Source: a virus
Length of the DNA: 24,924 bases
IMG/VR virus record: IMGVR_UViG_3300030047_000119
Coordinates: 1 to 24,924 of that record
Reading direction: 5' to 3' (one strand)
The position numbers and the translations under genes are program-made. Below the pieces are notes generated by a model, which saw nothing but the letters and a program-made list of their open reading frames with translations, was not told the origin of the DNA and made no database searches. Each line of letters starts with the position of its first letter. The stretch's first letter is position 1. Shown piece by piece: positions 10,926 through 24,924 of this stretch.

Positions 10926-12468
10926 AATTTTAAAACCATTTTTATGGATCCTTACGGGATGCCGCTTTGATTTTTTTGGGATCAGTGCTGGAACCGCTTT
11001 AAGCGTTGGGGTAGGTGCGGCCGGTGCGTTGGGTAACGGGTTAGCTAGTTCGAGCGCGGGCAGGGCGGGACAAAAAGCATCATGGGCCGCCTATATGCAA
11101 CAACTAGCGGCAATGCAGGGAGCTAGTAATGCTAATGAGCGAAATGCGACCGTTACACGGGATCAGAGCCAAGCATATAACCAGTATGCTTACGATCAAA
11201 CAGGGCAGCTACAAGGGCAAATGTACGGGACCGCCCTGGAAGGAAACAATCAGGATTCTAATTACTGGAATCAAGCTAATGCCCAGGGCTTGCAGTATGG
11301 AACCGACGCAATAAACCAAAGTTACAAGGCATTAATGGGCGGCGCTGGTGGATCGCGCGACGCGTTGAATAATGCCATAAATCAATCGTACGGCGAACAA
11401 ATGAACGCGGCCGGTGGATCACGCGACGCGTTGAATAGTGGGGCAACCGGCGCATATAATGCTCAAATGGGTGCGGCAACCGCCAGAGATGCCAATTACA
11501 ACGCGGCGTTTAAAGGTATACAGGGTTATTTTGATCCGTACATGCAAGCCGGAACCGGCGCATTGAGTAGTCAACAAGCTCTAATGGGTTTAAGCGGTAA
11601 AGCAGCCCAGGATGCCGCTTTTACAGGGTTACAGAATGGCCAATATGCAGCGTTGGCTAAACAAGGCGAGAATAGTCTATTGCAGAATGCAGCGGCAACA
11701 GGCGGGGTGCGGGGCGGCAATACAGCGGCCGCGTTGGCCCAATTCAGACCGGCCATGATGCAAAACATAATTGACAAGCAAACGGCGAACCTTGCTGGTA
11801 TGTCTAATCAAGGTTTAAGCGCGTCCAATTCATTGGCTGGTTACAGGTCCGATTTAGGAAACCAGTTAGCGGGGGTTAATGCGGATAGGGGTAATTTTGG
11901 CGCAACTTATAAAACAGCGTTAGGAAATAACAACAGCAATTATGCGTTAAGGGTCGGCGATTTAGGCTCGGCAAAATATACCGGGATCGGTAAAAATAAC
12001 AGCGATTATAACTTAAGGGCAGGAGATTTAGGATCACAAAAAGCAACACAATTTGGCGGTTTAAAAACAGCCAATGCGAATCGTACCGCTGAAATAGGTA
12101 GCCAATGGATCAAAAATCAAACAGCGTTAACCAATCAAAATTACTCTAATCAATTAAACAATTATCTATCATACATTAACGGCAACCGTCAGAACGCTAT
12201 TGATTACAGCAGCGGGACCAACGGTTATCAAGCTCAGTTAATGCAACAATTAGGGCAAGCCGGCGCAAACCAAGCGCAACAAGCGGGAGGTTATAACCAA
12301 TCGAGCGCGTTGGGTTGGGGCAATGCGTTAGGTCAAGGTTTAGGCGCGTTATCTGGTTTATTTGGTGGTGGTTCGGGCGGAGGTGGTGGTTCGGGCGGAA
12401 GTTCAGGTAGTTGGGGCGTACCGAGCGGGTACGGATCAGGCGGTTATGGTTTTGCAGGATTACATTAA
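10912..12468 (+). CDS. Probable ejection (internal virion) protein with 22-residue repeats, 518 aa
   Basis: The start overlaps the previous gene by 14 bases. The N-terminus is hydrophobic (residues 1-20, with a Cys, then AGTALSVGVGAAGALGNGLA), suggesting membrane interaction. Residues 135-200 are three 22-residue units, the first two sharing NQSY and GGSRDALN. Residues 205-300 hold FDPYMQAGTGALSSQQALMGL and AAATGGVRGGNTAAALAQFRP, a pattern frequent in podovirus DNA-transfer proteins. Residues 339-404 are three more 22-residue units with (R)xGDLGS. The end is a Gly/Ser-rich tail. Such proteins are ejected with the DNA and help form a channel across the host envelope. Placement between gp10-like and lytic-transglycosylase genes fits the P22 gp7/gp20/gp16 region. 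Confidence 0.72.
   Translation: MILHKILKPFLWILTGCRFDFFGISAGTALSVGVGAAGALGNGLASSSAGRAGQKASWAAYMQQLAAMQGASNANERNATVTRDQSQAYNQYAYDQTGQLQGQMYGTALEGNNQDSNYWNQANAQGLQYGTDAINQSYKALMGGAGGSRDALNNAINQSYGEQMNAAGGSRDALNSGATGAYNAQMGAATARDANYNAAFKGIQGYFDPYMQAGTGALSSQQALMGLSGKAAQDAAFTGLQNGQYAALAKQGENSLLQNAAATGGVRGGNTAAALAQFRPAMMQNIIDKQTANLAGMSNQGLSASNSLAGYRSDLGNQLAGVNADRGNFGATYKTALGNNNSNYALRVGDLGSAKYTGIGKNNSDYNLRAGDLGSQKATQFGGLKTANANRTAEIGSQWIKNQTALTNQNYSNQLNNYLSYINGNRQNAIDYSSGTNGYQAQLMQQLGQAGANQAQQAGGYNQSSALGWGNALGQGLGALSGLFGGGSGGGGGSGGSSGSWGVPSGYGSGGYGFAGLH
11314..11511 (+). repeat. 66-bp (22-codon) tandem repeat, three units, in the ejection-protein gene
   Basis: Three units encode residues 135-156, 157-178 and 179-200. 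The first two share a 24-base stretch differing at one position (11347-11370 and 11413-11436); the third is degenerate. Confidence 0.75.
11926..12123 (+). repeat. Second 66-bp (22-codon) repeat block in the ejection-protein gene
   Basis: Units encode residues 339-360, 361-382 and a degenerate 383-404. Shared residues include NNS(N/D)Y, LR and GDLGS; the third keeps Arg, Ile, Gly, Ser, Gln at matching places. The period equals that of the first block. Confidence 0.7.
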
Positions 12469-12490
12469 AAATTAACGAGGTTAAAATATT

Positions 12491-13258
12491 ATGGCGAATT
12501 TAATACCAGGCGTTAGCCAAGGTTCGGACAGCACAGTGAGCAATGTGAATATAGGCGCACCAGGTTTAACTACCACAGCTAAACCGCTAAACAACAATGT
12601 AAGCGGGAACGGTGTGCCATTACCAGCGATTAAGCAACCGTTAACAGGTGGGCAAGTTACCGGGGGACCTACCCCCATACCAGGTGCCGGACTACCTGGT
12701 ACACAGTTACCACTTGCGCAGAAACCTGCAACACAGTTGCCGGCTTATACGATCCCACGGCCCCCAAATGTATTCCAGGGACAGGCAAATAACTGGCGTA
12801 CTAGTTATCATCCATTAGTGGCGGAAGCATTACAAAACGGGCAACAATTACACCCGGCGTTGTTGCACCCAACCGTTAATGATGCAATGCTCGCTAACCA
12901 ACCGCTGCACCCCGCGATTGTTCAAGCGATCCAGACGGGGCAACAATTACACCCTGATATTGTTCACACATTACAGCAAAGCATAAGCGGACCAGCAGCG
13001 CAACCGTTGAACGGATCCCCCGGTTATGGTAACCAGGGACGCGGTTTTGAGGGTGGACAGGCGACCGGACAACCGATGCAAACTTACGGAAATAACACGC
13101 CCCGCCCCCTTTATTATGGTCCCGGTTATGGTAATCAGGGAAGAGGTAATGAGGGCGGCGGGCTTTTTCAAGGCGGACCGCAACCAGCACAGACGCCTAA
13201 TGTTTTTCAAGGTGGACCGCAACCAGTAGCGAACGGGTACAACTTCAAAGGTTTATAA
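12491..13258 (+). CDS. Pro/Gln/Gly-rich repeat protein, 255 aa
   Basis: Low-complexity protein without a recognisable domain. Residues 1-100 are Pro/Thr/Gly-rich. Residues 107-167 are four 14-residue units beginning His-Pro (consensus HPxVxxALxxGQQL) with a 5-residue insert after the first. Residues 177-223 contain two copies of PGYGNQGRGxEGG, and residues 226-245 two copies of FQGGPQP. It has no signal peptide or membrane helix. It sits between two probable ejection proteins in an unbroken run of tightly spaced genes, so it is likely an internal virion protein or an assembly factor. GAGG is 13 bases before the ATG. Because it is repetitive it could be a flexible spacer or a binding array. 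Confidence 0.7.
   Translation: MANLIPGVSQGSDSTVSNVNIGAPGLTTTAKPLNNNVSGNGVPLPAIKQPLTGGQVTGGPTPIPGAGLPGTQLPLAQKPATQLPAYTIPRPPNVFQGQANNWRTSYHPLVAEALQNGQQLHPALLHPTVNDAMLANQPLHPAIVQAIQTGQQLHPDIVHTLQQSISGPAAQPLNGSPGYGNQGRGFEGGQATGQPMQTYGNNTPRPLYYGPGYGNQGRGNEGGGLFQGGPQPAQTPNVFQGGPQPVANGYNFKGL
12809..12991 (+). repeat. 42-bp (14-codon) HP repeat
   Basis: Encodes units at residues 107-120, 126-139, 140-153 and 154-167, each opening His-Pro. Two contain the phrase GGGCAACAATTACACCC-like wording (near 12840 and 12939), showing recent duplication. Confidence 0.7.
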
Positions 13259-13261
13259 AAA

Positions 13262-14572
13262 ATGAGCGATTTATTAGACCCTAGTACGATTATAGCGAAC
13301 AGCCTACAAAACCCTTTTAAAATGGGGTTTGATAACGTTAACGCGGTACGGGATAGCATAGAGGAACGGGATAAACTAGCACAACGCGACGCGGATTTAC
13401 AAGCCTTGAGCGAAAATCATAGCCCTAAACAAATTTTAAACTTAGTTTTGAAATATCCCGAGTTGAGCGGGCATATAAAAACAGCTTTCGAGGGGTTTGA
13501 TACTAACGAGCAAAAGCGGCGCGTTGATGCTACCATTCCAATTTATAGCGCGGCGTTGGCGGGTAGAATGGACGTGGCCAAAAAGATGCTAGAAAAACAA
13601 GCGTTAGCATTAGAGAATAGTAACGGCGATCCAGAAGAAGTAGCGCGGTTGCGTGATTTTGCAGCCATGGCAACCGAGGATCCAGAGAGTTTTAAAAATT
13701 ATGCTGGAATGAGTTTAGCTCATGGTATGGGCGCGGATAATTTTGGTAAAACGTGGCTGGATCAGACGAAAGCGGAAAACGTTAACCAATTGACCCCTTA
13801 TCAAATTTACTCAGAAACCGCCAAGGGTAAAAAAGATGTAGCAGACGCGGCAACAAAAGAGGCGGTATTACCATTTGCAGCAGATACAGCAGCGGCCGAA
13901 TTACAAAACAAACAGTACGCGTTAACCGATACGAAAGCAGATAATGAGGTTAACGCGTTAAATGCGGCCGTCGGTGTTCAAACTAACACGTTAAAACAAC
14001 GTGAATTAAATCAGAATTTAAGCATTAAGGAGCAGGAACGGCAACAAAAGCAATTAGACGGGGCGCAAGCGTACGAAACCGCAAACAGTACAATCGAGGG
14101 TGTTAAAAGTAGGTTAATGGACGCGTTAAGCGATCCAGCGTTAAAAGCGTCGCCATGGCAACGAAAGTTATTTAACGGGGTCCCGGGATCCCCTTATAAA
14201 ACTTTTGACCAAAAGCTTGCGACTATTCAAACAATGAACCTAATTCCAACATTGGCAGCGGCAAAAGCGGCGGGGTGGACAGGTTCAATGTCAGACAAGG
14301 ATATGGAACTGCTAAAGAGCGAACTTGACAGTTTAGATACGGCCCTAGATTCAAAAGAACTAGAGAAACATTTAACCAAAATCCATACAGTGTTAAGCGT
14401 AGCGCAAAAACGAAGCGCGAAATATGCGAAAAAATCCGAGCAATTAGGAATGTTGCCGGCCGGAACCGTAGAACCAACCGCCCCGGATAATAACGCTATA
14501 ATGAGCATATTGATACAGAACGGCGCAACCCCCCAGGAAGCGGCCGAATTTTTACAAAGCAGAGGTCGTTAA
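13262..14572 (+). CDS. Probable helical ejection protein, 436 aa
   Basis: Almost entirely helical and charged, with long Ala/Gln/Lys/Glu segments (for example EVNALNAAVGVQTNTLKQRELNQNLSIKEQERQQKQ, about residues 220-260), likely coiled coil. Residues 280-395 have the layout seen in phage internal virion proteins: a segment ending in LPTLAAAKAAGWTGSMSDKDMELLKSELDSLDT, followed by a helix of about 30 residues. There is no enzyme motif. It sits directly before the transglycosylase fusion (stop TAA immediately followed by ATG), in the place of P22 gp20. The C-terminal NNAIMSILIQNGATPQEAAEFLQSRG resembles a UBA-like three-helix packing motif, which is an impression only. Confidence 0.68.
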   Translation: MSDLLDPSTIIANSLQNPFKMGFDNVNAVRDSIEERDKLAQRDADLQALSENHSPKQILNLVLKYPELSGHIKTAFEGFDTNEQKRRVDATIPIYSAALAGRMDVAKKMLEKQALALENSNGDPEEVARLRDFAAMATEDPESFKNYAGMSLAHGMGADNFGKTWLDQTKAENVNQLTPYQIYSETAKGKKDVADAATKEAVLPFAADTAAAELQNKQYALTDTKADNEVNALNAAVGVQTNTLKQRELNQNLSIKEQERQQKQLDGAQAYETANSTIEGVKSRLMDALSDPALKASPWQRKLFNGVPGSPYKTFDQKLATIQTMNLIPTLAAAKAAGWTGSMSDKDMELLKSELDSLDTALDSKELEKHLTKIHTVLSVAQKRSAKYAKKSEQLGMLPAGTVEPTAPDNNAIMSILIQNGATPQEAAEFLQSRGR

Positions 14573-17038
14573 ATGGATGCCCCTAAAAGTTACAAGGATC
14601 CGATTTATAATCTAATTGACCAGCAAGTAGAAAGTCGCGTCGGTTTGCCGGCGGGTTTATTGTCTAGCGTTCGGTTACATGGGGAACGATCAAACGCGGA
14701 TCAGGTTAGCAGCGAGGGGGCGCGTTCGGTTTATCAAATTATCCCGAAAACCAGGAAATCGGTGTTAAAAAAGTACGGTATTGATGCTTATTTAAGCCCT
14801 CATAATGCAGCGATGACAGCCGCGTTATTATTAAAGGAAGCGCAAGACAGGAACGGTGGTAACCCGGCCGAAGCGGTTGCAGAGTACGTTGGCGGCACAG
14901 ATCGAAAAAACCATGGACCAGTGACTAAAAGTTATGTTAATCGGGTAATGTCAGCATTAAACCCGATCGTAACCGCTAACGCGGCCGAACGTCCCGAGAT
15001 CGACCCGGCGAAAATATTAGCTGACTTCCAAAGCTGGAAAGCAGCGAAGCAACCCGAACAGGTACAACCCGAGCAAGCGCCAGCGATCCCCCAACCGGAT
15101 CAGGGCGGCAGCGATCCCAACGACCCGGCGAAAATATTAGCAGACTTTCAAGCATGGAAAGCGGCGAAGCAACCGCCCCAACCAGCCAAAGAAACCGCTA
15201 TAGGTAACCCGTTAACCTTAAACCCATATCAGGCGTTAAGTATGGGCGCGGGCGTTATCAATAACGCGTTAAGCCCCCAGGATGACCAACCAGCGGCCGA
15301 AGGTGATCGGATCGGGCAGCGTATGGCGCGAGATATCACCGACATTGGACAGGGGGTTATAAATACAGTAAGTCATCCGTTAGATACGGCCGCTAATTTG
15401 GCCGGGGTTATTCGTGGCGGTATGCAGTCAGCTTTACCGGATTCAGTTACTAACGCATTAATAAAACAAGGTATAACCCCCGACGCGCGGCCGCAGTTCC
15501 AAGCCATGGCGCAAGATTTAAAAAACAGTTATGGATCCCCGGAAGCGATCCTAAAAACGGCACATGATCGACCAGTAAGTACAGCTCTAAACGTGCTAGG
15601 TTTGGCTGGTGGTGTGAAGTCGTTAATGTCAGCAGCACCCCGCGAAGTTGCGAGCGTTGCCCCGTTAGTTGATAGTTGGACCGCACCCGGCACAGCGTTA
15701 GAGAGAACAGCGGCGGTTAACGCCAACAACGCGGCCAGGAACGCAAGCGCGGCCGGTGCGAGTTTAAGCGAACAGGCCGCGGCAAGCGGTATAAATCCCG
15801 AAATAACCAAAATAATCCAAGCCGGCGAACAAAATAACTTATTGAACGAAACCGCGACGGTCCGCCATATGGCGGCACATAGTTTACCAGTTCCGATAGA
15901 GTTAACCGAGGGGCAAGCGTTAGACGATGCCGCACGCATGTCAATTGAAAAGAACAGCCGGGCAAAATACCCGCAGATAGGGGAGCGTTTAGACCAACAA
16001 GACGCGGGTTTACATGCTAATTTAGACGCTATTCACGAGCGAGCCGCCCCGGATATATTCGGGGGTTCCCATATTGACGATGGCCAGGGAGTAATTGATG
16101 GTTATAAATTATTAGATAACGATTTAAAAACAGATATTCGAGGTAAATATAAAGCATTAGCCGACGCGAACGGAGGAGCATTGCCAATTGACACAAACCA
16201 ATTTATTGGGGCCGCAAGTCAAGAGTTAACCCGAACAATGCGGGGCGCATTTTTACCGAGTAAATTAAAAAAGGTTTTAGTTAATTTACAAGAAAACGGG
16301 GTTATGAGTTTCGAACAGTTTGAGAACTTACGAACGATTTTAGCGAGTGAAGCCCGCAAACTTGAAATAAAAGGGGATGGCACAGCTTTGCACGCGGTTA
16401 GAATAGTACGGGACGCATTAGAGAACGCGCCATTATTACCTGGAGCAACCCAGGATATGAAAAGTTTAGCAGATACCGCCAGGGCGGCCGCAAAAAACCG
16501 TTTTAGCATGTTAGAGAGGGATCCGGCGTATAAGGCGGCGGTTAACGATAAGGTTGCGGCCGATGATTTTATCCAAAAATTTGTTATTAACGGTAAGCGT
16601 AAAAATTTAGAAACCATGGTTGAACATTTAGCCGACGACCCGTTAGCCATTCAATCAATGAACAGCGGTGTAATGCGGGCATTAAAAAAAGCGGCGTTTA
16701 GTAAAAATGGATTCAAGGCCGACACCTACAGAAAAGCATTGAATCATTTAGAACCCAGGTTACAGTCTATTATGAACCCGGAGGACTTGAACGACTTGGG
16801 TAAAGTGGCCGACGTTGGCGATTGGATAAAGGCACAAAAATCCAGCGGATATGTTAATAATTCAAATACATTCACGGCATCATTAGGTGATAAAATAAAC
16901 AAAGGATTGACTCATATCCCAGGGATCGGCCCCGTCGTAGAAATGGGACTTGACGCAAGGTTGCGGGCGATTGAAGAACAATCTATAAACAACGCGTTAA
17001 AACCCGGCGCGGGGATCATTAACAATTACGGATTATAA
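14573..17038 (+). CDS. Ejection protein with N-terminal lytic transglycosylase domain, 821 aa
   Basis: Residues 15-130 are an SLT-type muramidase: GLPAGLLSSVRLHGERS with probable catalytic Glu38, then GARSVYQIIPKT (the family's GAxGLMQxxPxT), a helix with NAAMTAALLLKEA and AEYVGGTDRKNHG (family: aYN.G). It would open peptidoglycan locally so phage DNA can cross the cell wall. Residues about 144-200 hold two copies of DPAKILADFQ(S/A)WKAAKQP, 40 residues apart. The remainder is long helical sequence with Ala-rich stretches, typical of P22 gp16- and T7 gp16-type proteins that leave the capsid with DNA. Glu38 sits in GERS rather than the usual ES. It follows two probable ejection proteins and precedes the tail fibre. 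Confidence 0.8.
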   Translation: MDAPKSYKDPIYNLIDQQVESRVGLPAGLLSSVRLHGERSNADQVSSEGARSVYQIIPKTRKSVLKKYGIDAYLSPHNAAMTAALLLKEAQDRNGGNPAEAVAEYVGGTDRKNHGPVTKSYVNRVMSALNPIVTANAAERPEIDPAKILADFQSWKAAKQPEQVQPEQAPAIPQPDQGGSDPNDPAKILADFQAWKAAKQPPQPAKETAIGNPLTLNPYQALSMGAGVINNALSPQDDQPAAEGDRIGQRMARDITDIGQGVINTVSHPLDTAANLAGVIRGGMQSALPDSVTNALIKQGITPDARPQFQAMAQDLKNSYGSPEAILKTAHDRPVSTALNVLGLAGGVKSLMSAAPREVASVAPLVDSWTAPGTALERTAAVNANNAARNASAAGASLSEQAAASGINPEITKIIQAGEQNNLLNETATVRHMAAHSLPVPIELTEGQALDDAARMSIEKNSRAKYPQIGERLDQQDAGLHANLDAIHERAAPDIFGGSHIDDGQGVIDGYKLLDNDLKTDIRGKYKALADANGGALPIDTNQFIGAASQELTRTMRGAFLPSKLKKVLVNLQENGVMSFEQFENLRTILASEARKLEIKGDGTALHAVRIVRDALENAPLLPGATQDMKSLADTARAAAKNRFSMLERDPAYKAAVNDKVAADDFIQKFVINGKRKNLETMVEHLADDPLAIQSMNSGVMRALKKAAFSKNGFKADTYRKALNHLEPRLQSIMNPEDLNDLGKVADVGDWIKAQKSSGYVNNSNTFTASLGDKINKGLTHIPGIGPVVEMGLDARLRAIEEQSINNALKPGAGIINNYGL
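15002..15172 (+). repeat. Direct repeat with 120-bp period inside the transglycosylase gene
   Basis: Stretches beginning at 15002 and 15122 are near-identical over about 50 bases, encoding DPAKILADFQSWKAAKQP and DPAKILADFQAWKAAKQP. The differences are mostly silent, so selection has kept the peptide. Confidence 0.8.
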
Positions 17039-17042
17039 AATC

Positions 17043-18518
17043 ATGTCACAAGCTATATTAAACCCTTTTACACCTTATTTAGGGGCCGACGGCCAACCGC
17101 TACAGAACGGTAAGTTATACGTTGGGGTTGCGGGTAACATTGCCGAAACCGCACCATTGACAGTTTATTGGGATCGAGCGTTAACCCAACCAGCGGCGCA
17201 ACCCTTAACATTGCAGAACGGGTTTATAACATTTGCAGGCGGGCCCTCGAATGTGTTTTTTAGCGCAAGTGATTACAGTTTAACTTTAAAAGATCACAAT
17301 GATGTTAATGTTTTTAGTATTTTATCGGCCCAGGCGGGAGGGTTTACGGATCAAGTTGTGACCGTCCCAACAATCCCAGTCAGCAATGATAATTTAATAC
17401 AAAACTCTAATTTTGAATATAATCAGTTGGGCGTTAGTGGAACGGTGACATTGTCAGCTAACCAAGCCGGCCATGATTGGTGGTATGCGGGATCGGGCGG
17501 CTGTACTTATACATTTACGACCAGTCTTGGCGTAACTACTGTTACAATAGTTTCCGGTACGCTTTACACCCAGGTTCCAGGTTTTAGGGCATTTAGCCAA
17601 ACTTATTGGCTAAGTTGGAATGGAACTGCACAAGGTCGCGTTGGTGCAGGAGTTTATGGAACACCTAGAGCGGTTACTTTAGTCGGTGGGGTAACAATCA
17701 ATATTGAGTTCTCAGCGGGGACGTTGAGTCAGGTCCAGTTAATTGTATCTAGTTCGACTATAGCTTGGAAGTCTGGTAACAACATATATCGGGCAGAAAT
17801 GGGAATACAATCGAGCAACCGTAATCTGATTATAAATAGCGGTTTCACGGTTAATCAGGGCGGCCTAAATATGGTCGGAGCGGCCGTAACATTGGGAGCT
17901 ACAGCGGTTGCAAACGACGTGTGGCGTGCGGGAGCGGCCGGTGTAACGTATCAAATTATCCCAAGTTTATCACTATCGAGGAACGGAATAAACATAACAG
18001 CGGGATCCTTAACACAAACAGTTGAATCATGGGAGGAAATTAAAATAAGCGGGAATTATGTACTATCATGGAGCGGAACCGCTAGTTGTAAAATTTACGG
18101 CACGACATTTACGAATGGTTATGCTTTTATATCCATGAACTATTATACCAACGTGGTTCTTGAATGGTTGCCCGGTACAATGTGGAATCCAACATTGACG
18201 CTAGGGGATAACATTGTGCCATATGTGCCAGAATTGCAGGTGGTTGAACTGTTAAGGTGTTATAGGCACAGACAATCTGTAACATTTAGCGAGCAGGTTT
18301 ATGGATCGGCAGGTATGGATTCAATTCGTTATAGAAATTTGCCCGTACCATTGCGATCAGCAAGCCCAACATTGACAATATTAACAGGGCCGACGTATGT
18401 TAACGCGTCAGCTTTTAACGTATTACCTTCCACTCAGTATATTAAAGAGGATTTTATAGTTACCGCTTTAGGGGTTGCTCGTGCAACCGCCACATATATG
18501 CTTGATGCGACTATTTAA
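17043..18518 (+). CDS. Tail fibre / tailspike with P22-like head-binding domain, 491 aa
   Basis: Residues 1-100 resemble the P22 tailspike head-binding domain in layout: NPFTPYLGADGQPLQNGKLYVGVAG, PLTVYWDRALTQPAAQPLTLQNGFI and DYSLTLKDHNDVNVFS. Two copies of a sugar-binding-type module follow, opening with NLIQNSNFEYNQLG (from residue 117) and NLIINSGFTVNQGG (from about residue 262); each continues with a W-rich stretch (HDWWYAG, NDVWRAG). The C-terminal ELLRCYRHRQ and LPVPLRSASPTLTI are a common phage fibre ending. It would bind a host surface glycan. No lyase or hydrolase motif is seen, so it may be a receptor-binding rather than a degrading spike. It lies between the ejection proteins and the lysozyme. 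Confidence 0.8.
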   Translation: MSQAILNPFTPYLGADGQPLQNGKLYVGVAGNIAETAPLTVYWDRALTQPAAQPLTLQNGFITFAGGPSNVFFSASDYSLTLKDHNDVNVFSILSAQAGGFTDQVVTVPTIPVSNDNLIQNSNFEYNQLGVSGTVTLSANQAGHDWWYAGSGGCTYTFTTSLGVTTVTIVSGTLYTQVPGFRAFSQTYWLSWNGTAQGRVGAGVYGTPRAVTLVGGVTINIEFSAGTLSQVQLIVSSSTIAWKSGNNIYRAEMGIQSSNRNLIINSGFTVNQGGLNMVGAAVTLGATAVANDVWRAGAAGVTYQIIPSLSLSRNGINITAGSLTQTVESWEEIKISGNYVLSWSGTASCKIYGTTFTNGYAFISMNYYTNVVLEWLPGTMWNPTLTLGDNIVPYVPELQVVELLRCYRHRQSVTFSEQVYGSAGMDSIRYRNLPVPLRSASPTLTILTGPTYVNASAFNVLPSTQYIKEDFIVTALGVARATATYMLDATI

Positions 18519-18522
18519 CATT

Positions 18523-18972
18523 ATGAACACTATATTGATTGAACATCTAAAACGATGGGAGGGGTGCAAATTAACCGCCTATCAAGATCAAGGCGGCGTT
18601 TGGACGGTGGGCGTAGGTTGCACCGGTCCGGACATTAAAAAGGGCGTTAAATGGACGCAAGAAAAAGCAGATAGCGAACTAAACCGAAGGGCAGCCGAAG
18701 CGTTAGCCGATGCCGTCAGGTTATCCCCTATTTTAGAAACCGCGAATGAGTCCCGTCAAGCGGCGGTTGCGTCGTTTATTTTTAATGTTGGGTTAGGAAA
18801 TCAAAAGCGGATCGGGTATATTTATTCGACTTTTAGAAAAAAAATCGACGCGGGCGATTGGATCGGAGCGGCCGAACAGATTAAAAAATGGAACCGCGTA
18901 TCCAGTGTTGTTAACAATGGATTAATAAACAGGCGACGGATTGAAGCCCAGTTATTATTAAAAAAGGTTTAA
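18523..18972 (+). CDS. Endolysin, T4-type lysozyme (GH24)
   Basis: Start at ATG 18523 gives 149 residues; the upstream frame could begin at TTG 18475 or ATG 18505, but those lie inside the fibre gene and add no domain. The catalytic layout Glu-8-Asp-5-Thr is intact: Glu13, Asp22, Thr28 in WEGCKLTAYQDQGGVWTVG. It cleaves the muramic acid - glucosamine bond of peptidoglycan. Other family landmarks are FIFNVGLG (residues ~83-90), the AEQIKKWN helix and the C-terminal GLINRRRIEAQLLL. There is no N-terminal signal-anchor sequence, so it is a cytoplasmic lysozyme that needs a holin to reach the wall. It is followed by two small membrane-protein candidates. Confidence 0.93.
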   Translation: MNTILIEHLKRWEGCKLTAYQDQGGVWTVGVGCTGPDIKKGVKWTQEKADSELNRRAAEALADAVRLSPILETANESRQAAVASFIFNVGLGNQKRIGYIYSTFRKKIDAGDWIGAAEQIKKWNRVSSVVNNGLINRRRIEAQLLLKKV

Positions 18973-18975
18973 TAA

Positions 18976-19197
18976 ATGGATAATTCCATAACGGAGAGCT
19001 TTTCGCAATTTGGATTAAACGGGTTAATAATAGGCGCGTTATTTGCATTTATTTATTTCCTAGTCAAGTTACATTCAAGCGAGCGCGCTGAGTGGTTAGC
19101 AGCTTACACCGAAGCTACAAAAGTAGCAGATAGCCGACAAGCGGAAACCAATGCTATACTTGCGCGGATAATTGAGCGGCGCGAAAATATAAGATGA
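18976..19197 (+). CDS. Single-TM protein, holin candidate, 73 aa
   Basis: Begins 3 bases after the lysozyme stop, with AAGG upstream. One membrane helix at about residues 14-35 (GLNGLIIGALFAFIYFLVKLH) follows a short polar N-terminus, then a charged helical C-terminus rich in Glu, Arg and Ala. This layout is that of BhlA-like holins, or of a short inner-membrane spanin, though spanins are usually longer. It probably helps the lysozyme cross the inner membrane. The stop overlaps the next possible start by four bases. Confidence 0.6.
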   Translation: MDNSITESFSQFGLNGLIIGALFAFIYFLVKLHSSERAEWLAAYTEATKVADSRQAETNAILARIIERRENIR

Positions 19198-19235
19198 GAA
19201 TAATTTTATCAACGTTTGACAAAAAAGAGGAAAAA

Positions 19236-19466
19236 ATGAGTATATTTTCAGTTTTACAAAAAGGCGTATCTGTAAGTAATCCAACGACATATAAAAAAGT
19301 TCAACAAGTGTTAACGCTTGTAGGATCGGCGGGGCCGCTTATAGCGGTTTTTAACCCGACGTTAGCCCAGTATGTTACCCCTGATAATTTGGCGGCGCTA
19401 GGTGCGTTCGTTGGTGGGCTTAACATTTACATGACAACCGCAACAACTGACAAAATTGGATTTTAA
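19236..19466 (+). CDS. Small hydrophobic protein, second holin candidate, 76 aa
   Basis: The frame is open from 19194, but ATG 19236 is preceded by AGAGG at the right spacing and the upstream 14 codons look like spacer. The protein has two moderately hydrophobic stretches: residues 22-35 (VQQVLTLVGSAGPLIAVF) and 48-65 (LAALGAFVGGLNIYM). It has few charges. This matches small phage proteins next to lysozymes that are annotated as putative holins, but it is not diagnostic. It is transcribed with the lysozyme and the single-TM protein. Confidence 0.55.
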   Translation: MSIFSVLQKGVSVSNPTTYKKVQQVLTLVGSAGPLIAVFNPTLAQYVTPDNLAALGAFVGGLNIYMTTATTDKIGF

Positions 19467-19469
19467 AAT

Positions 19470-21128
19470 ATGAAAAGTAAAACATTAATTATTGCTTTAT
19501 TGGGTTTTTTGCCATTGGTAGCCATGGCCGGACCTGATTTAATAGTGACAGCAACCGCTTATGATGCACCTACGCAAAAATTTAGCGCGACGTTGAAAAA
19601 CGTGGGTACGACCGCGATCACGCCAAGCCAAAAAATAAGCGTGCGTTATTATGTTGACGGTGTAGAGCGTTCGTATGGTAGCGTAACGCAAGTATTAGCA
19701 GCGGGAGCGTCGGTTAATATTGGAAGCGTCCCCCTGTATACGATCCCGGCAGGAACTTATACCCTTGACACATGGGCAGATCCGACGTTATTAATTGCAG
19801 AGGATGACGAAACAAACAACCATTTAGTTGTTGTTGTTGACCGCACCCCGCCAACGTCGGTAATAACAGCACCAACGACCGGATCGACATTATCCGGATC
19901 CACTGTAAATTTAGCAGTAACTTCAACGGATGATATCGGGGTCGTTGGCGTACAGTTTAAGCTTGACGGTGTTAACATTGGAGCTGAAGAACATCAGTTA
20001 CCTTATGCCATTGTTTGGGATTCAACAACCGTAACCGATGGGCCGCACGTATTAACGGCATTAGCTAGAGATGCAGCCGGGAATACTACAACAAGCGCCA
20101 ATGTTAACGTTACAGTTGATAATACGGTTGCAGTTGATGATTATGCTATTCAAGGTTTTGCCAAAGTTGCGAATGTAACAGGTGGCGCAGGTGGTACAGT
20201 TTACACGGTAACAAACGGCGCAAACAGCGGGACTAATTCACTTTATGATTACATTAACCGGGCCGGGGCGCGTACGATCAAGTTTACGCCAGGATTAACG
20301 GCCATAATATCAATGCCGCCAGCGTCAGCAACCTCCCCGTTTATGTACTTGCAAAACGGAAATGTTACACTTGACGGTAAAGATGCAGATATAACAATCA
20401 CAGGAGCGTCGATCAATACCAATGGTAAGTCCAACATTATTATTAAGAACATGACGTTTAAGGATAATATCGCAGACGGCAGCGCGGTTCAGATAGATTG
20501 GGGTAGTTATAACGTTTGGGTGGATCATAATACGTTCAGCGGACAGACCTCAGGTAGTACGTCAGGCCAGCCTATTGCAGTATGGAATCATTCAACGACC
20601 GGCCTTGATGGATCAACCTCAGAATTAACAGGCGTAACGTTAAGCTGGAACCATTACAAAGCGGTGAATAGCCGAGCGGTGTTAACGGGTAGCGAGTCAC
20701 ATAATACCGGAAACACGGTGGTGTTACCGACCCGGATTAGTTCACATCACAATTGGTATGATAACTGCACATCACGCAACCCAAGGGCGCATAGTAAAGG
20801 TTCAACAATTCACGAGTGGAATAACTACGCGTCGGCTAATTGGAGTGAATCCCCTATAGCGATCAGCCAGGGGGCCGCGTATTATGGTCAAGGTAATATA
20901 TACGAACCGCTTGGTAGCATTAAGCAGATAACAGTTAACCACGATTACTATTACCCAACCGACGTCGGCTTAGGTAATAAATCAGTTGGCACATACTTGT
21001 TGAACGGCGCGACAATACCGGATTATGGAACTTTTCCCATGGATCGGATAACGTATACGCCGACGGTTGAAACAGCCGACGCAGTTCTAAAAGCGCGCAT
21101 CATTGCCGGGGCCGGTGCGAATAAGTAA
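19470..21128 (+). CDS. Secreted modular pectate lyase (signal peptide, CARDB, Ig-like, PL1 beta-helix), 552 aa
   Basis: Residues 1-20 form a Sec signal peptide (MKSKTLIIALLGFLPLVAMA). Residues 22-125 are a CARDB-like domain (PDLIVTATAYDAP ... DDETNNHLVVVVD). Residues 128-218 are a bacterial Ig-like domain (PPTSVITAPTTGSTL ... DAAGNTTT). Residues 222-552 match polysaccharide lyase family 1: AIQGFAKVANVTGG at its start, a repeated beta-helix, VWVDH at 349-353, VTLSWNHYK at 389-397, and HHNWYDNCTSRNPRAH at 426-441 with the likely catalytic Arg436. It would cleave polygalacturonate or a related uronic-acid polymer by beta-elimination outside the inner membrane. It is the last late gene, after the lysis cassette. 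Codon use looks like the rest of the phage. A tailspike role is unlikely because of the signal peptide. Confidence 0.85.
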   Translation: MKSKTLIIALLGFLPLVAMAGPDLIVTATAYDAPTQKFSATLKNVGTTAITPSQKISVRYYVDGVERSYGSVTQVLAAGASVNIGSVPLYTIPAGTYTLDTWADPTLLIAEDDETNNHLVVVVDRTPPTSVITAPTTGSTLSGSTVNLAVTSTDDIGVVGVQFKLDGVNIGAEEHQLPYAIVWDSTTVTDGPHVLTALARDAAGNTTTSANVNVTVDNTVAVDDYAIQGFAKVANVTGGAGGTVYTVTNGANSGTNSLYDYINRAGARTIKFTPGLTAIISMPPASATSPFMYLQNGNVTLDGKDADITITGASINTNGKSNIIIKNMTFKDNIADGSAVQIDWGSYNVWVDHNTFSGQTSGSTSGQPIAVWNHSTTGLDGSTSELTGVTLSWNHYKAVNSRAVLTGSESHNTGNTVVLPTRISSHHNWYDNCTSRNPRAHSKGSTIHEWNNYASANWSESPIAISQGAAYYGQGNIYEPLGSIKQITVNHDYYYPTDVGLGNKSVGTYLLNGATIPDYGTFPMDRITYTPTVETADAVLKARIIAGAGANK

Positions 21129-21148
21129 AAACTAAGTTGTAAAACTAG

Positions 21149-21171
21149 AAAGGGGCCGTTATGGCCCCTTT
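21149..21171 (+). terminator. Intrinsic terminator closing the late region
   Basis: AAAGGGGCC (21149-21157) pairs with GGCCCCTTT (21163-21171) around a GTTAT loop, followed by TTT and ATT. It lies 21 bases after the pectate lyase stop, between convergent transcription units. On the minus strand the U-run is weaker, so it may act in both directions but mainly on plus. Confidence 0.9.
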
Positions 21172-21179
21172 TTTATTGC

Positions 21180-21326
21180 TTAAGATAAATGGTTATACAT
21201 CCCGATCCCAATGATCGAGAAAATAACCGCGTCAATTATGAATATATACGTCCATACAAGACGTTTTAATTTAGGTGAGGGGGTTGTGTCATAATCGTCG
21301 AATAAATCATTATATTTTTTCATCAT
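21180..21326 (-). CDS. Tiny single-TM protein, 48 aa
   Basis: Read on the minus strand from ATG at 21326. AAAAGG lies 5 bases before the ATG. The protein is MMKKYNDLFDDYDTTPSPK followed by LKRLVWTYIFIIDAVIFSIIGIGMYNHLS: a charged N-terminus and one membrane helix at about residues 24-43. It is the last gene of the minus-strand cassette, and its start lies inside the end of the 41-aa gene, so it is probably coupled to it. I recognise no family. It ends only 9 bases from the late terminator, and its orientation fits a unit shared with the exported proteins. Confidence 0.6.
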   Translation of the reverse strand: MMKKYNDLFDDYDTTPSPKLKRLVWTYIFIIDAVIFSIIGIGMYNHLS

Positions 21327-21435
21327 TAAGCCTTTTATAGTATTTTAGTTTACCGAGTAACCGGCGAAGTTTGTAATAATTATCAAGCCGCTTTTTAGCA
21401 CCTAATAATCCGAATTTAAAAATAAGCCCGTTCAC
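21310..21435 (-). CDS. Tiny basic protein, 41 aa, GTG start
   Basis: The GTG start overlaps the stop of the upstream exported protein in a GTGA, a classic coupled arrangement. The protein is MNGLIFKFGLLGAKKRLDN followed by YYKLRRLLGKLKYYKRLNDEKI; about a third of residues are Lys or Arg, and residues 14-38 would form an amphipathic basic helix. No family is recognised. It overlaps the start of the 48-aa gene by 17 bases. It could be an RNA- or membrane-binding peptide; the call rests on gene organisation rather than similarity. Confidence 0.45.
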   Translation of the reverse strand: MNGLIFKFGLLGAKKRLDNYYKLRRLLGKLKYYKRLNDEKI

Positions 21436-21962
21436 TTTATCCCGTACCGCTTATCATATTGAGCTTGCAACGCGGCCAACCGTTCAAGGGATTTAGCTTT
21501 GATTTTAGCCGCGTTTATGGTTGGGTTTGATTGGGGGCAAGGGCGATCAGTTAACAGGTAAGCGGCCCGAATGATCGGATCCGTACACATGACGATCCGA
21601 GCCGCTTCCATATCCCCCAGGTTAGCCAGTAATTGGGCATTTTGGCGCAAGTTGCAAGGATCCGATTCAATAGACCGCCCCAACGAGAACGCGCCACCAG
21701 CGAAGCCAGCACCGACGGATACCCCGCCTTGACAGGTTATCAGGGAGCCAGGAATAGCCGGGGCGTAAGCCGTACCAACAGCCCGCGACAGATCGACAGC
21801 CGGAGACGCGGCATTATGCCCAAAGTCCTGCACGATAACCGCTCCCGATTGACTACCAGCGGCTGAATTGCTTTGTTGTTCGGCGTGAGCATTACCGAAT
21901 AGCGATAGAACGATCACAACCGCGACAAAAAAGTATGATCCGAATAAATAAATATGTTTCAT
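21432..21962 (-). CDS. Exported four-cysteine protein, 176 aa
   Basis: Start chosen at ATG 21962 because residues 1-27 (KHIYLFGSYFFVAVVIVLSL then FGNAHA) make a signal peptide; the open frame reaches back to 22073, but that overlaps the upstream gene. The mature protein has four Cys (77, 103, 126, 142), probably two disulfides, a Gly-rich core around residues 79-94, a RSIESDPCNLRQNAQLLANLGDMEAARIVMC helix pair and CPQSNP, then a basic C-terminal helix (AAKIKAKSLERLAALQAQYDK). This Gly-rich plus D-x-x-C plus M/V-C plus P-C-P pattern recalls uncharacterised exported proteins in many podoviruses, from memory. It is likely periplasmic or surface-associated. Role unknown. Confidence 0.72.
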   Translation of the reverse strand: MKHIYLFGSYFFVAVVIVLSLFGNAHAEQQSNSAAGSQSGAVIVQDFGHNAASPAVDLSRAVGTAYAPAIPGSLITCQGGVSVGAGFAGGAFSLGRSIESDPCNLRQNAQLLANLGDMEAARIVMCTDPIIRAAYLLTDRPCPQSNPTINAAKIKAKSLERLAALQAQYDKRYGIK

Positions 21963-21972
21963 GGCGGCGAAC

Positions 21973-22308
21973 CTATTTAATAGGATAAACGACGTGACCT
22001 GAAACCTCAGACCCGCCGAACGTGCCGCCAACGAAAGCCCCCGAAGCCCCAGGGATCGCAAAACTTGACCCATAACTACGAGTCGTTGTTATGGTTTGGG
22101 ACGCGATGCCATGGGGGGTCCTAAACGCGTCGGCGGTTGTTTTTATACCCGCCCCGGCGTTGACCGATACCGACGTATTTGAACCGCCAGCGATATTGGA
22201 GCCAACTGAGGACGCGACCCCGAAATCAAACGCGGCGTTATGAGCGTCGGCCGGCGCATAAACAACCGCCAGGGATAACAAAAGACAGACTAACGAGATA
22301 ATTTTCAT
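21973..22308 (-). CDS. Exported Gly/Ser-rich protein, 111 aa
   Basis: Residues 1-22 form a signal peptide (MKIISLVCLLLSLAVVYAPA then DAHN); GGAG lies 7 bases before the ATG. The Cys at position 8 lies inside the hydrophobic core and is not followed by a lipobox, so it is not an obvious lipoprotein. The mature part is Gly, Ser, Thr and Ala-rich (VASSVGSNIAGGSNTSVSVNAGAGIKT) with little charge and alternating beta-type sequence, ending SEVSGHVVYPIK. It precedes the four-cysteine protein by 10 bases, so the two are probably made together and may interact outside the membrane. I recognise no family and no enzymatic motif. Confidence 0.7.
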   Translation of the reverse strand: MKIISLVCLLLSLAVVYAPADAHNAAFDFGVASSVGSNIAGGSNTSVSVNAGAGIKTTADAFRTPHGIASQTITTTRSYGSSFAIPGASGAFVGGTFGGSEVSGHVVYPIK

Positions 22309-22369
22309 TTTAATGCTCCAAAGTTTAAAGTTGAGTTTTTTACTGCGAATTAATTACAACACAGACTGA

Positions 22370-24268
22370 TTATTGAGTAAAACTATTAATTGTTTTAGCG
22401 GCGGTGGAAATGTACCAATTATAATTCAGATCAGCCGGTAATGAATCCGGCAATGTCATCAGCGGTCGGCAAGTTTCAGACAGTGAAACCAGATTACCCG
22501 CTTTAGTTTGAATATGGCCGGTTGAAGTGGTTGAATAATACCAACGAACGACTTTACCTAGATATTCATAACGGGCCGCCAATGCCGTTAAAAGATCGTT
22601 ATAGTCGTTTATCCCGTATTGTTCACACAACGACGCGGCCAGCTTTTTAGATGGTTTTTTAGGGATCGGTGGATAGTTTGAGAAATAACCGCCCCCCGGC
22701 CCTGTAGCATCCCAGGATCCGGCAACCTTGCGAACCGAAACAAATTGCCGGATATCTTTACAGTTATAAACGGTTAAAGCGATCGGTGTTTGATTAGTTA
22801 AATATTCGATGATAGCAATATTAACAATATTGGCCGTCGGTGAGGGCCAGGAACCCCCAACCGGTTCAGGCGGCGCAAAACAGCCTTTTAACTTAACGGA
22901 TCCGTCGGTTTTAATTGCAATATAATTGTTAACGTCTCGGGAGTAAACGGCGGTGTATTCTGTTTCTTCTATTTCAAAGCCGGTTAATTTTTCCCAATTT
23001 TTAATGATATCGTAGACCAGCCACAACATTGCATTATCAACGTTTAACACTATTCCGTCAGTATTTGCCGAAATAACCGAAATCCCACAAAGTTCGAGAG
23101 TTTCAATTAACATTAATATTGCTAATTGCCCAGTTAACGTAACTTGTATTAATTCGGTTGGAGCGTAGAAAATAGAATACTTTGAGCCTAATTTACCGAA
23201 TGTCCCATTAAGCACGATTTTCAACATATCAGCTTGTTTTTTATCGCCGCTATGTTTTGCGGTGATCCTGGTATCACGCCAACCCCTATATATTGGCATA
23301 AAATCACCTTTTAATTGGATCGGTTCAATATCATTATTTATCATAATAGCGGGGTAATAACTGGCTACATCAAAATCTTTTAACGACCGCGTATCAGTTT
23401 TATGATAACTAACATTAGTTTCTTTTGAGTGTAACCCCCCAATGCCCATTTGATAACAGGTTGATCCGATTTTTAAATCATAATCACTTAACGCTTTAGG
23501 AAGATCAACCGCCCCGCTTTTACTTATAACAAAAGGGTTTGTTAATAATTCTAGGATTGGGAGCGAGTGAAATTTAACCCAGTCGGGTGGGCGATAATAA
23601 AACTCCAATCCGACTGGGTAACTAGGCGTAGCTGTTTTTTTGTTCAATTCATGTTTGAAAACTGATTCAGCAATTTGAGCATCAGATTTTGACCGGAGAT
23701 CCATGCCGTATTTATCCCCCATAGCGGCGCGGAGTTTTATTTGAGGTTTGAATTTTTCGTAAGCCTCCCGCGTTATACGTAAATCGTTGTAACAATATTC
23801 ACGAAGTAAAAAAGTTTCTACAAAATTTAAACGATTTGTCGGGTTAAATGGTAGATCCTGCAATGTTTTAGTATGCAGTTTTCCCCCGTACATTTTCAGG
23901 CTATTTTGACCCGGTAGCAATTCGATCAAGTCTATATGATCTAAATTAAAATTATCCTTAATACCCCAGTTTCTTAATAAATCCCAATGGCACACCCCGT
24001 ACACGATAAGGTCGTCGGATGCCCCTTTCAATTGTTCGTTAGTGCAACCAGCTAGAGCGAGCTTTAATATTGGCAAGTCGTAAGAGATCCCGTTAAAAGA
24101 TATCAAGGTATATTGTTTAAGGGCAGCAAGTAACCCGACAGTATCCAATGTCTCATTTTCAAAACGTTCAAAATATTGGCCATCGTCAAAAGCACATAAG
24201 AAATAATTTGGGTAAACTTCAATATCAAAACATTTTGTTAACGGATAATTTAGCACATCATTTTCCAT
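22370..24268 (-). CDS. Family B DNA polymerase with 3'-5' exonuclease
   Basis: 632 residues with a full set of motifs. Exonuclease: Exo I FDIE (Asp15, Glu17), Exo II NGISYD (Asn59, Asp64), Exo III YCYND (Asp162). Polymerase: motif A DVASYYP (Asp300), motif B KIVLNGTFG (Lys350 to Gly358), motif C SANTDG (Asp404), and a KLKG segment at 459-462. Motifs A and B are only 50 residues apart and B and C 54 apart, so the TPR1 and TPR2 insertions that define protein-primed polymerases are missing. It would be the replicative, proofreading enzyme of the phage. AGGGG precedes the ATG. The first residue of the motif C Asp pair is Asn402, a variant seen in some phage enzymes. P22 itself has no polymerase gene. 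Confidence 0.93.
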   Translation of the reverse strand: MENDVLNYPLTKCFDIEVYPNYFLCAFDDGQYFERFENETLDTVGLLAALKQYTLISFNGISYDLPILKLALAGCTNEQLKGASDDLIVYGVCHWDLLRNWGIKDNFNLDHIDLIELLPGQNSLKMYGGKLHTKTLQDLPFNPTNRLNFVETFLLREYCYNDLRITREAYEKFKPQIKLRAAMGDKYGMDLRSKSDAQIAESVFKHELNKKTATPSYPVGLEFYYRPPDWVKFHSLPILELLTNPFVISKSGAVDLPKALSDYDLKIGSTCYQMGIGGLHSKETNVSYHKTDTRSLKDFDVASYYPAIMINNDIEPIQLKGDFMPIYRGWRDTRITAKHSGDKKQADMLKIVLNGTFGKLGSKYSIFYAPTELIQVTLTGQLAILMLIETLELCGISVISANTDGIVLNVDNAMLWLVYDIIKNWEKLTGFEIEETEYTAVYSRDVNNYIAIKTDGSVKLKGCFAPPEPVGGSWPSPTANIVNIAIIEYLTNQTPIALTVYNCKDIRQFVSVRKVAGSWDATGPGGGYFSNYPPIPKKPSKKLAASLCEQYGINDYNDLLTALAARYEYLGKVVRWYYSTTSTGHIQTKAGNLVSLSETCRPLMTLPDSLPADLNYNWYISTAAKTINSFTQ

Positions 24269-24286
24269 AATAACCCCTGTAAAAGC

Positions 24287-24306
24287 GGGCAGGTATCACC
24301 CTGCCC
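24287..24306 (-). terminator. Weak attenuator-like hairpin before the polymerase gene
   Basis: GGGCAGG (24287-24293) pairs with CCTGCCC (24300-24306), 6-base loop. Read on the minus strand the hairpin is followed by GCTTTTA, a short U-run, and lies between the 161-aa gene and the polymerase. It could lower read-through into the polymerase. Confidence 0.5.
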
Positions 24307-24313
24307 TATTAGA

Positions 24314-24799
24314 TTATATCATGAAGCCGGATAACCGTAACGCGTCGTCAGTCCAACCGCTTGCAATGTACTGTTCATAAGTATAAGCAGCGGCGGTCGT
24401 CATTTGTTTAGCCGGTGGCGGTGCAGGGTGCGGGGCGGGTGGTGGTGGCGGTGGATCCATTGAAGCGGCGGTTTGGGCTTGCATAGGGGCCGGAGCGTTT
24501 ACTTGGTGAGTAGTTATAACCGGTGCGGCCGCGACGTTGGGCGGTATAACCAGAGATTCAATGTTAATGGTGTTTACGTCAATAGTGTTAACTATACGGC
24601 CGTCAGGATGATAACCAACGAAAACAACCGCCAGCGGGTTAATAAATACCCCCGGCGTATGTGAACGCGCCCCCGGCTTCATGACATTGGCAGCTACGGA
24701 AACTTGAACCGCTACAAAATCCCCCGGCATGATAGCATCAGGTTGAGTTAACATTTGGCGTTTGAGATCACATAACAACGGGGCCCATGATTGAGACAT
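24314..24799 (-). CDS. Polyproline linker protein in the replication region, 161 aa
   Basis: Residues 1-95 form a beta-rich domain (PGDFVAVQVSVAANVMKPGAR, GVFINPLAVVFVGYHPDGRIV) that could bind nucleic acid or protein. Residues 96-137 are an Ala/Pro linker with DPPPPPPAPHPAPPP. The end, TYEQYIASGWTDDALRLSGFMI, is a compact helical tail of the type found at the C-terminus of phage proteins next to replication genes (from memory, a (I)xAGWTDxxLxxxGxM phrase). The linker-plus-short-tail design recalls SSB-like proteins whose tails dock partners, but no OB fold can be claimed. It lies directly upstream of the polymerase and shares its operon. Function unknown. Confidence 0.68.
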   Translation of the reverse strand: MSQSWAPLLCDLKRQMLTQPDAIMPGDFVAVQVSVAANVMKPGARSHTPGVFINPLAVVFVGYHPDGRIVNTIDVNTINIESLVIPPNVAAAPVITTHQVNAPAPMQAQTAASMDPPPPPPAPHPAPPPAKQMTTAAAYTYEQYIASGWTDDALRLSGFMI

Positions 24800-24801
24800 T
24801 G

Positions 24802-24924
24802 TTATGATCCAATTACCAGGGTGGCCGTGTTGATCGCATGGCCGTTTTCCGACGGTGTTTGGTATGGTTGAATCCCCATCCTTAATTTTCCAGCTAAAAG
24901 CGGGCGTATTGATGACACCAGGAT
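24802..24924 (-). CDS. C-terminal end of an unidentified gene (partial at right edge)
   Basis: Open from the right edge on the minus strand to a TAA at 24804-24802: the last 40 residues, ending GHAINTATLVIGS. The stop is 2 bases before the ATG of the 161-aa gene, so it is the preceding gene of the same operon. The fragment is too short to identify. Confidence 0.6.
   Translation of the reverse strand: MLVSSIRPLLAGKLRMGIQPYQTPSENGHAINTATLVIGS

Follow-up and report, generated by a model that had tools for sequence, protein, structure and literature searches.

The phage depolymerases known so far are mainly tailspikes, which act on the particle. Phage lyases with signal peptides have also been reported: in the Cellulophaga phages Ingeline and Nekkels, proteins that have a signal peptide and a lyase domain for pectin or alginate are proposed to aid entry or progeny escape (PMC8776804). 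Polysaccharide-degrading genes on virus contigs are already well known, and a soil viral chitosanase that was shown to be active has been read as an auxiliary metabolic gene (PMC9485262). On the bacterial side, VexL (6fi2, PL1 subfamily 13), the Vi-antigen lyase of Achromobacter denitrificans, acts on the organism's own capsule, and the title of 6fi2 and a reference cited in PMC9597891 describe it as a periplasmic depolymerase. VexL is reported to be metal-independent, PfPL1 is proposed to be so, and the VexL structure was obtained with a trisaccharide product of N-acetylgalacturonic acid (PMC11229556). WceF of Pantoea stewartii, whose gene adjoins EPS genes, is an exported beta-helix enzyme working on bacterial EPS (PMC7949094).

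The window analysed here, a stretch of 24,924 nucleotides of viral DNA (IMG/VR record IMGVR_UViG_3300030047_000119), encodes a PL1-family protein that is comparable to these systems in part. Like VexL, it has a PL1 beta-helix and the RNPRA motif; unlike it, VexL is bacterial, has no CARDB or Ig-like domain, is 19–29% identical and stands apart from the phage clade, which is separate and deep. Ingeline and Nekkels differ from the window phage in being flavobacterial and siphovirus-like, and the likeness is one of description, tblastn against GenBank phages giving no match. The gene at the tailspike position of MW202475 is, like the window gene, annotated in a phage as a pectate lyase ("pectate lyase superfamily"), but its product has a head-binding domain and no signal peptide, and the two proteins share no significant similarity. 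WceF resembles the window protein as an exported beta-helix enzyme, but is a Tat-exported trimeric hydrolase with a tailspike fold, not PL1 (PMC7949094), and the soil chitosanase, another polysaccharide-degrading enzyme on a virus contig, belongs to GH75 and acts on chitin/chitosan (PMC9485262). The initial annotation of the window treated a phage depolymerase with a signal peptide as an exception to the rule; the Cellulophaga lyases weaken this implied uniqueness (PMC8776804).

The lyase gene and the late operon

The features of the operon end are as follows.

17043..18518, plus strand, tail protein with a P22-tailspike-like head-binding N-terminus (N-terminal 98 aa, compared with tail proteins of relatives)
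18475..18972, plus strand, lysozyme-type endolysin (Phage_lysozyme E 2.5e-28; phrog_7 endolysin E 9.9e-45)
18976..19197, plus strand, holin candidate with one hydrophobic (TM) segment, hydropathy 2.68, and a charged C-terminal part
19194..19466, plus strand, small protein of 90 aa (shorter from an internal ATG), second lysis candidate, directly upstream of the PL1 gene
19470..21128, plus strand, PL1-family lyase gene, predicted exported; intact ORF with ATG start, 552 aa
19470..19529, plus strand, predicted Sec signal peptide, residues 1–20, cut between A20 and G21 after AMA: MKSKTLIIALLGFLPLVAMA followed by GPD
19533..19826, plus strand, CARDB domain, residues 22–119 (PF07705, E 3.9e-10, 40.3 bits, cut-off 22.7)
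19851..20060, plus strand, Ig-like domain Big_7, residues 128–197 (PF17957, E 8.6e-12)
20139..21125, plus strand, PL1 beta-helix catalytic domain, residues 224–552 approximately (PF00544 match and AlphaFold2 model)
21147..21173, plus strand, intrinsic-terminator-like hairpin at the operon end, with a stem of 12 pairs and a T run after it
21432–21962, minus strand, small gene of 176 aa if read from the internal ATG at 21962, with a strong signal-peptide-like start and a match to phrog_20531 (function unknown)
21973–22308, minus strand, small exported-type gene of 111 aa beyond the terminator, with a strong signal-peptide-like start

The rightward late operon runs from a transglycosylase-type ejection protein through the tail protein, lysozyme, holin candidate and small ORF to the PL1 gene and the hairpin. 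The PL1 gene, starting 3 nt past the stop of the preceding gene, is the last of the operon, and the genes beyond run leftward. Neither the holin candidate nor the small protein after it has a family match in Pfam or PHROG. The hairpin is the longest found in a scan whose count is about the same as in shuffled sequence.

The N-terminus of the PL1 protein shows the n-, h- and c-regions of a substrate of Sec and signal peptidase I by a simple home-made score: a basic n-region, an 11-residue hydropathy of 2.82 and an A-X-A (AMA) site. By the same score, this combination is unique to the PL1 gene among the plus-strand late genes of the window. The two minus-strand genes have signal-peptide-like starts as well, so that predicted exported proteins are grouped at this site, encoded on both strands.

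GC (0.463) and GC3 (0.427) of the gene are close to those of its neighbours and its codon score falls among those of the other late genes; a very recent import, of which these values give no sign, is rejected. An identical protein is encoded on a 35,572-nt contig (L005) and on a 4,184-nt contig, and this identity in two further contigs rules out both an artefact and an assembly join. The near-identical L005 differs from the window at 33 sites in 12226–24924 (12.7 kb) and at 1 site in the first 14.2 kb, an unevenness which suggests recombination or mixed strains.

Most of what the initial annotation read from the letters thus holds: the Sec signal peptide as a prediction, the order CARDB, Ig-like and PL1, the place at the end of the late operon after lysozyme and holin candidates, and the neighbour-like base and codon use. 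The gene itself is real and has homologues in two other phage lineages besides the identical copies.

Family, fold and active site

The core of the PL1 match covers residues 304–469 (Pectate_lyase_4/PL1, PF00544; E 6.5e-15), and its 55.8 bits against the curated Pfam cut-off of 24 place the protein in PL1. The AlphaFold2 model of this domain alone, made from an 11-sequence alignment that itself consists of PL1 proteins, is of moderate confidence (pTM 0.79, mean pLDDT 68.6); the full-length model from a four-sequence alignment reaches pLDDT 40. The PDB fold search gave 27 matches at E <= 0.001, every one a PL1 enzyme with the right-handed parallel beta-helix of PL1 type, in agreement with the fold first proposed for this gene. 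VexL comes first in the fold search (E 8e-11, TM 0.67), with pectate lyases close behind, and it is also the first solved match by sequence (E 3.9e-12), followed by the pectate lyase 3vmv (E 2.4e-10). Since pectate lyases, namely 3vmv and 7xks, are nearly equal to VexL by sequence and fold, the evidence for a capsule substrate is indirect.

20772..20789, plus strand, active-site stretch SRNPRA, residues 435–440, with R436 aligned to PelC R218

PelC R218 is the catalytic Arg of PL1 enzymes, and PelC D131 the catalytic Ca2+ ligand. R436 and P438, forming the R-x-P of the catalytic Arg, are invariant in the 11-sequence alignment. The stretch RNPRAHSKG is identical across three phage lineages, and its VexL counterpart is RNPRAQ. 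The position of PelC D131 is Ser in all three phage lineages and Asp in L015, L043 and L044–L049, and the phage proteins therefore do not have the Asp of a Ca2+-dependent PelC-type enzyme; the Ser, taken alone, is not diagnostic.

The tree sets the phage clade apart, with a deep PL1 branch of length 1.47 to itself. VexL groups with L034 only. The nearest to the phage clade by path are L033 and then the VexL-like L034, and there is no supported neighbour; the clade does not cluster with VexL, the enzyme of PL1 subfamily 13. By fold, sequence, R436, the Ser at the D131 position and the tree, the window protein belongs to PL1 but is neither a demonstrable member of the VexL subfamily nor a Ca2+ enzyme of the PelC type. 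The name "pectate lyase" given to it initially has no support from this separate deep branch.

Homologues in other phages

In the virus collection, the PL1 catalytic domain is found in only two other phage lineages, at 70–79% identity; whether scanned by alignment or by three conserved DNA motifs, the collection gave the same three lineages every time. Two further candidates from the DNA-pattern scans, L020 and L021, were rejected as false matches within tape-measure-like genes. Plasmids gave weak matches only (27–35% identical), and among GenBank phages there is no tblastn match to the PL1 protein and no megablast match to the window.

One of the two lineages, L009, is a T4-like phage by its gp43-type DNA polymerase, UvsX and DnaB-type helicase. 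Its protein of 612 aa carries FN3-type domains ahead of a PL1 domain 79% identical to that of the window and has no recognisable signal peptide at the N-terminus, so export is not universal in the clade. Immediately upstream of this lyase lies a Mom-family DNA-modification gene (L009:8389–9039, E 1.2e-32). The other, L010 (the same phage is also recorded as L011 and L012), has head and adaptor genes of a different type. Its lyase gene sits in the virion/late region, with coding ends overlapping both neighbouring genes, and encodes 463 aa: a signal peptide (MWKIIALLLLSFQAFA followed by D), CARDB and a PL1 domain 70% identical to the window's, the N-terminal parts of the two proteins being about 43% identical. 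Two genes upstream there is a short secreted/lipoprotein-like RadC/JAB protein (L010:8713–9144, E 4.7e-7). Big_7 is absent from both the L010 and L009 homologues.

DNA likeness between the compared loci, including the window and L010, is restricted to the PL1 gene. Between the phage lineages, dN of the PL1 domain is 0.16–0.23 and dS is 1.0, 3.4 or saturated (not computable), which indicates an old divergence under purifying selection and shuffling of the domain onto different N-terminal parts. These values bear on the idea that the protein is a catalytically dead carbohydrate-binding or adhesion protein, using the PL1 fold for binding only. The replaced Asp at the PelC D131 position, the CARDB and Ig-like domains and the long branch would fit it, but the catalytic Arg and the surrounding stretch are invariant despite the high or saturated dS, and VexL is reported to be active without metal (PMC11229556); a dead enzyme is hardly to be expected here.

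Another phage group (L044, L045, L046, L048 and L049) has classical PL1 proteins of DRMPRVRFG type in a conserved gene neighbourhood; they have PL1 from the start codon, without a signal peptide, and a long C-terminal part after it.

The phage and its tail protein

Portal, coat, head closure and ejection proteins and the gene order of the window are of the P22-like podophage type. The nearest named relatives, with portal identity of 44–48%, are two Manatee Spring phages and Pseudomonas phage PfAn1, that is, phages of a freshwater spring and of Pseudomonas fluorescens. In their annotated stretches examined, no comparable lyase gene is found at this place; together with the lack of any match among GenBank phages, this makes the PL1 gene an accessory gene of this phage. 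The family B DNA polymerase encoded on the minus strand at 22370–24268 has about 42% identity to its counterparts in enterobacterial phages of the Seurat/CAjan type. To judge from these similarities, the genome is a mosaic, with a Seurat/CAjan-type polymerase inside an otherwise P22-like phage, and the relatives of portal and polymerase hint at a gammaproteobacterial host.

The N-terminal 98 aa of the tail protein at 17043–18518 are 41% identical to the tailspike-position protein of MW202475 and 31% to the PfAn1 tail protein. Its product, not the PL1 protein, is likely to be the virion adsorption protein by this similarity: another gene takes up the adsorption position, and no means of attaching to the virion is visible in the PL1 protein. 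Where a tailspike would have its N-terminal head- or tail-binding domain, the PL1 protein has a signal peptide and CARDB, and with a separate tail protein in place its gene does not look like that of a tailspike.

The PL1 protein could still be a virion-associated depolymerase whose N-terminal hydrophobic stretch is unused for export. Its late gene near a tail gene would suit this, as would the usual form of phage beta-helix depolymerases, which is the tailspike, the T4-like homologue without a signal peptide and the PL1 proteins of the other phage group that begin with the lyase domain. However, the head-binding domain belongs to 17043–18518, two lineages have a clear signal peptide, and neither the window nor the L010 protein matches a PHROG structural family (the L009 match falls on its FN3 part). 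We consider a virion protein very unlikely.

Bacterial relatives and their gene context

Among about 760 Pseudomonadota genomes, taken as two overlapping samples, there are only two matches to the phage profile at E <= 1e-12; a PF00544 search of 150 Pseudomonadota genomes matched only in the centre genome itself. L033 is a large surface-type protein adjoining a Wzc-like chain-length kinase gene. Around L034, the VexL relative, are genes of the epimerase, glycosyltransferase, Poly_export, Wzz-like and ABC-2 membrane types. As read from their genes, both settings (two cases) are those of capsule/EPS biosynthesis, not of pectin use. Around the classical PL1 homologue L015 of Marinomonas, the genes have no EPS functions (one case).

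With VexL as the best solved relative and the Pseudomonadota matches beside capsule/EPS genes, "pectate lyase" is probably a misleading name. A bacterial acidic slime coat is more probably the target than plant pectin. Of the two roles offered at first, clearing of capsule or biofilm for progeny is favoured by VexL and the EPS neighbours, and the auxiliary metabolic gene is less favoured. As such a gene, it would secrete a lyase digesting plant or algal pectin and give carbon to the infected cell. The PL1 family, true pectate lyases close by sequence and fold, and the signal peptide are in line with this, and phage pectin lyases have been so discussed, as a possible by-product (PMC8776804). 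But the late position after the lysis genes would leave little time for carbon gain, no gene for pectin uptake or GalA metabolism was noted in the window, the nearest bacterial relatives sit in capsule/EPS settings, and the PelC D131 position is not Asp, a difference that alone decides nothing. A role in pectin digestion thus seems unlikely.

The lyase might instead act on nascent capsule, as VexL does, either within the periplasm or on the infected cell's surface, so that the receptor is lost, superinfection is controlled and progeny do not stick to debris. The signal peptide agrees with this, and so does the description of VexL, in the title of 6fi2, as a periplasmic depolymerase. Yet late rather than early expression is poorly suited to exclusion, the capsule as receptor is an assumption, and the accessory Ig domains look more extracellular; we hold this role to be distinctly improbable.

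Proposed role

Late expression beside the lysis genes, the signal peptide and the non-virion architecture fit a soluble enzyme that is stored in the periplasm or exported and freed around lysis. The best explanation as a whole, to which we assign a probability of roughly 0.55, is a late-made, Sec-exported or lysis-released soluble PL1 lyase for acidic capsule or EPS. In this scheme, a phage-specialised PL1 lyase would be produced late in infection and, to judge from its signal-peptide-like sequence, carried to the periplasm by the Sec pathway, to be freed at lysis, or earlier given further export by the host. Its most probable substrate would be an acidic polysaccharide containing uronate, from the capsule or EPS of the host and of neighbouring cells, cleaved, by homology, through metal-independent beta-elimination at R436. 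CARDB and Big_7 may serve as spacer or binding modules. The depolymerase activity would thus be present in a soluble form, apart from the virion tail protein, and thinned EPS round the lysing cell could let progeny spread and reach new cells.

A broader proposal, possible but on balance doubtful, is that the three lineages represent a clade of soluble, Sec-exported capsule lyases peculiar to phages, kin to bacterial capsule/EPS-locus enzymes and exchanged between unrelated phages as a catalytic cassette with interchangeable fronts; late in infection these would remove the coat from the dying cell and from cells nearby, as diffusible, virion-independent enzymes. Within the searches made here, a distinct phage-only PL1 clade appears to be new, as do, by sequence comparison, its occurrence, with front modules exchanged, in three different phage lineages, and its tie to capsule lyases rather than pectinases.

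If the proposed role is right, a late soluble exported lyase is a second phage route through capsules and biofilms, next to the tailspike. The action of such a lyase would extend to cells not infected by the phage, and it would be usable as a phage-free enzyme. Furthermore, auxiliary metabolic genes labelled "pectate lyase" in viral metagenomes may in some cases encode capsule lyases; conclusions on viral effects on carbon cycling would then change.
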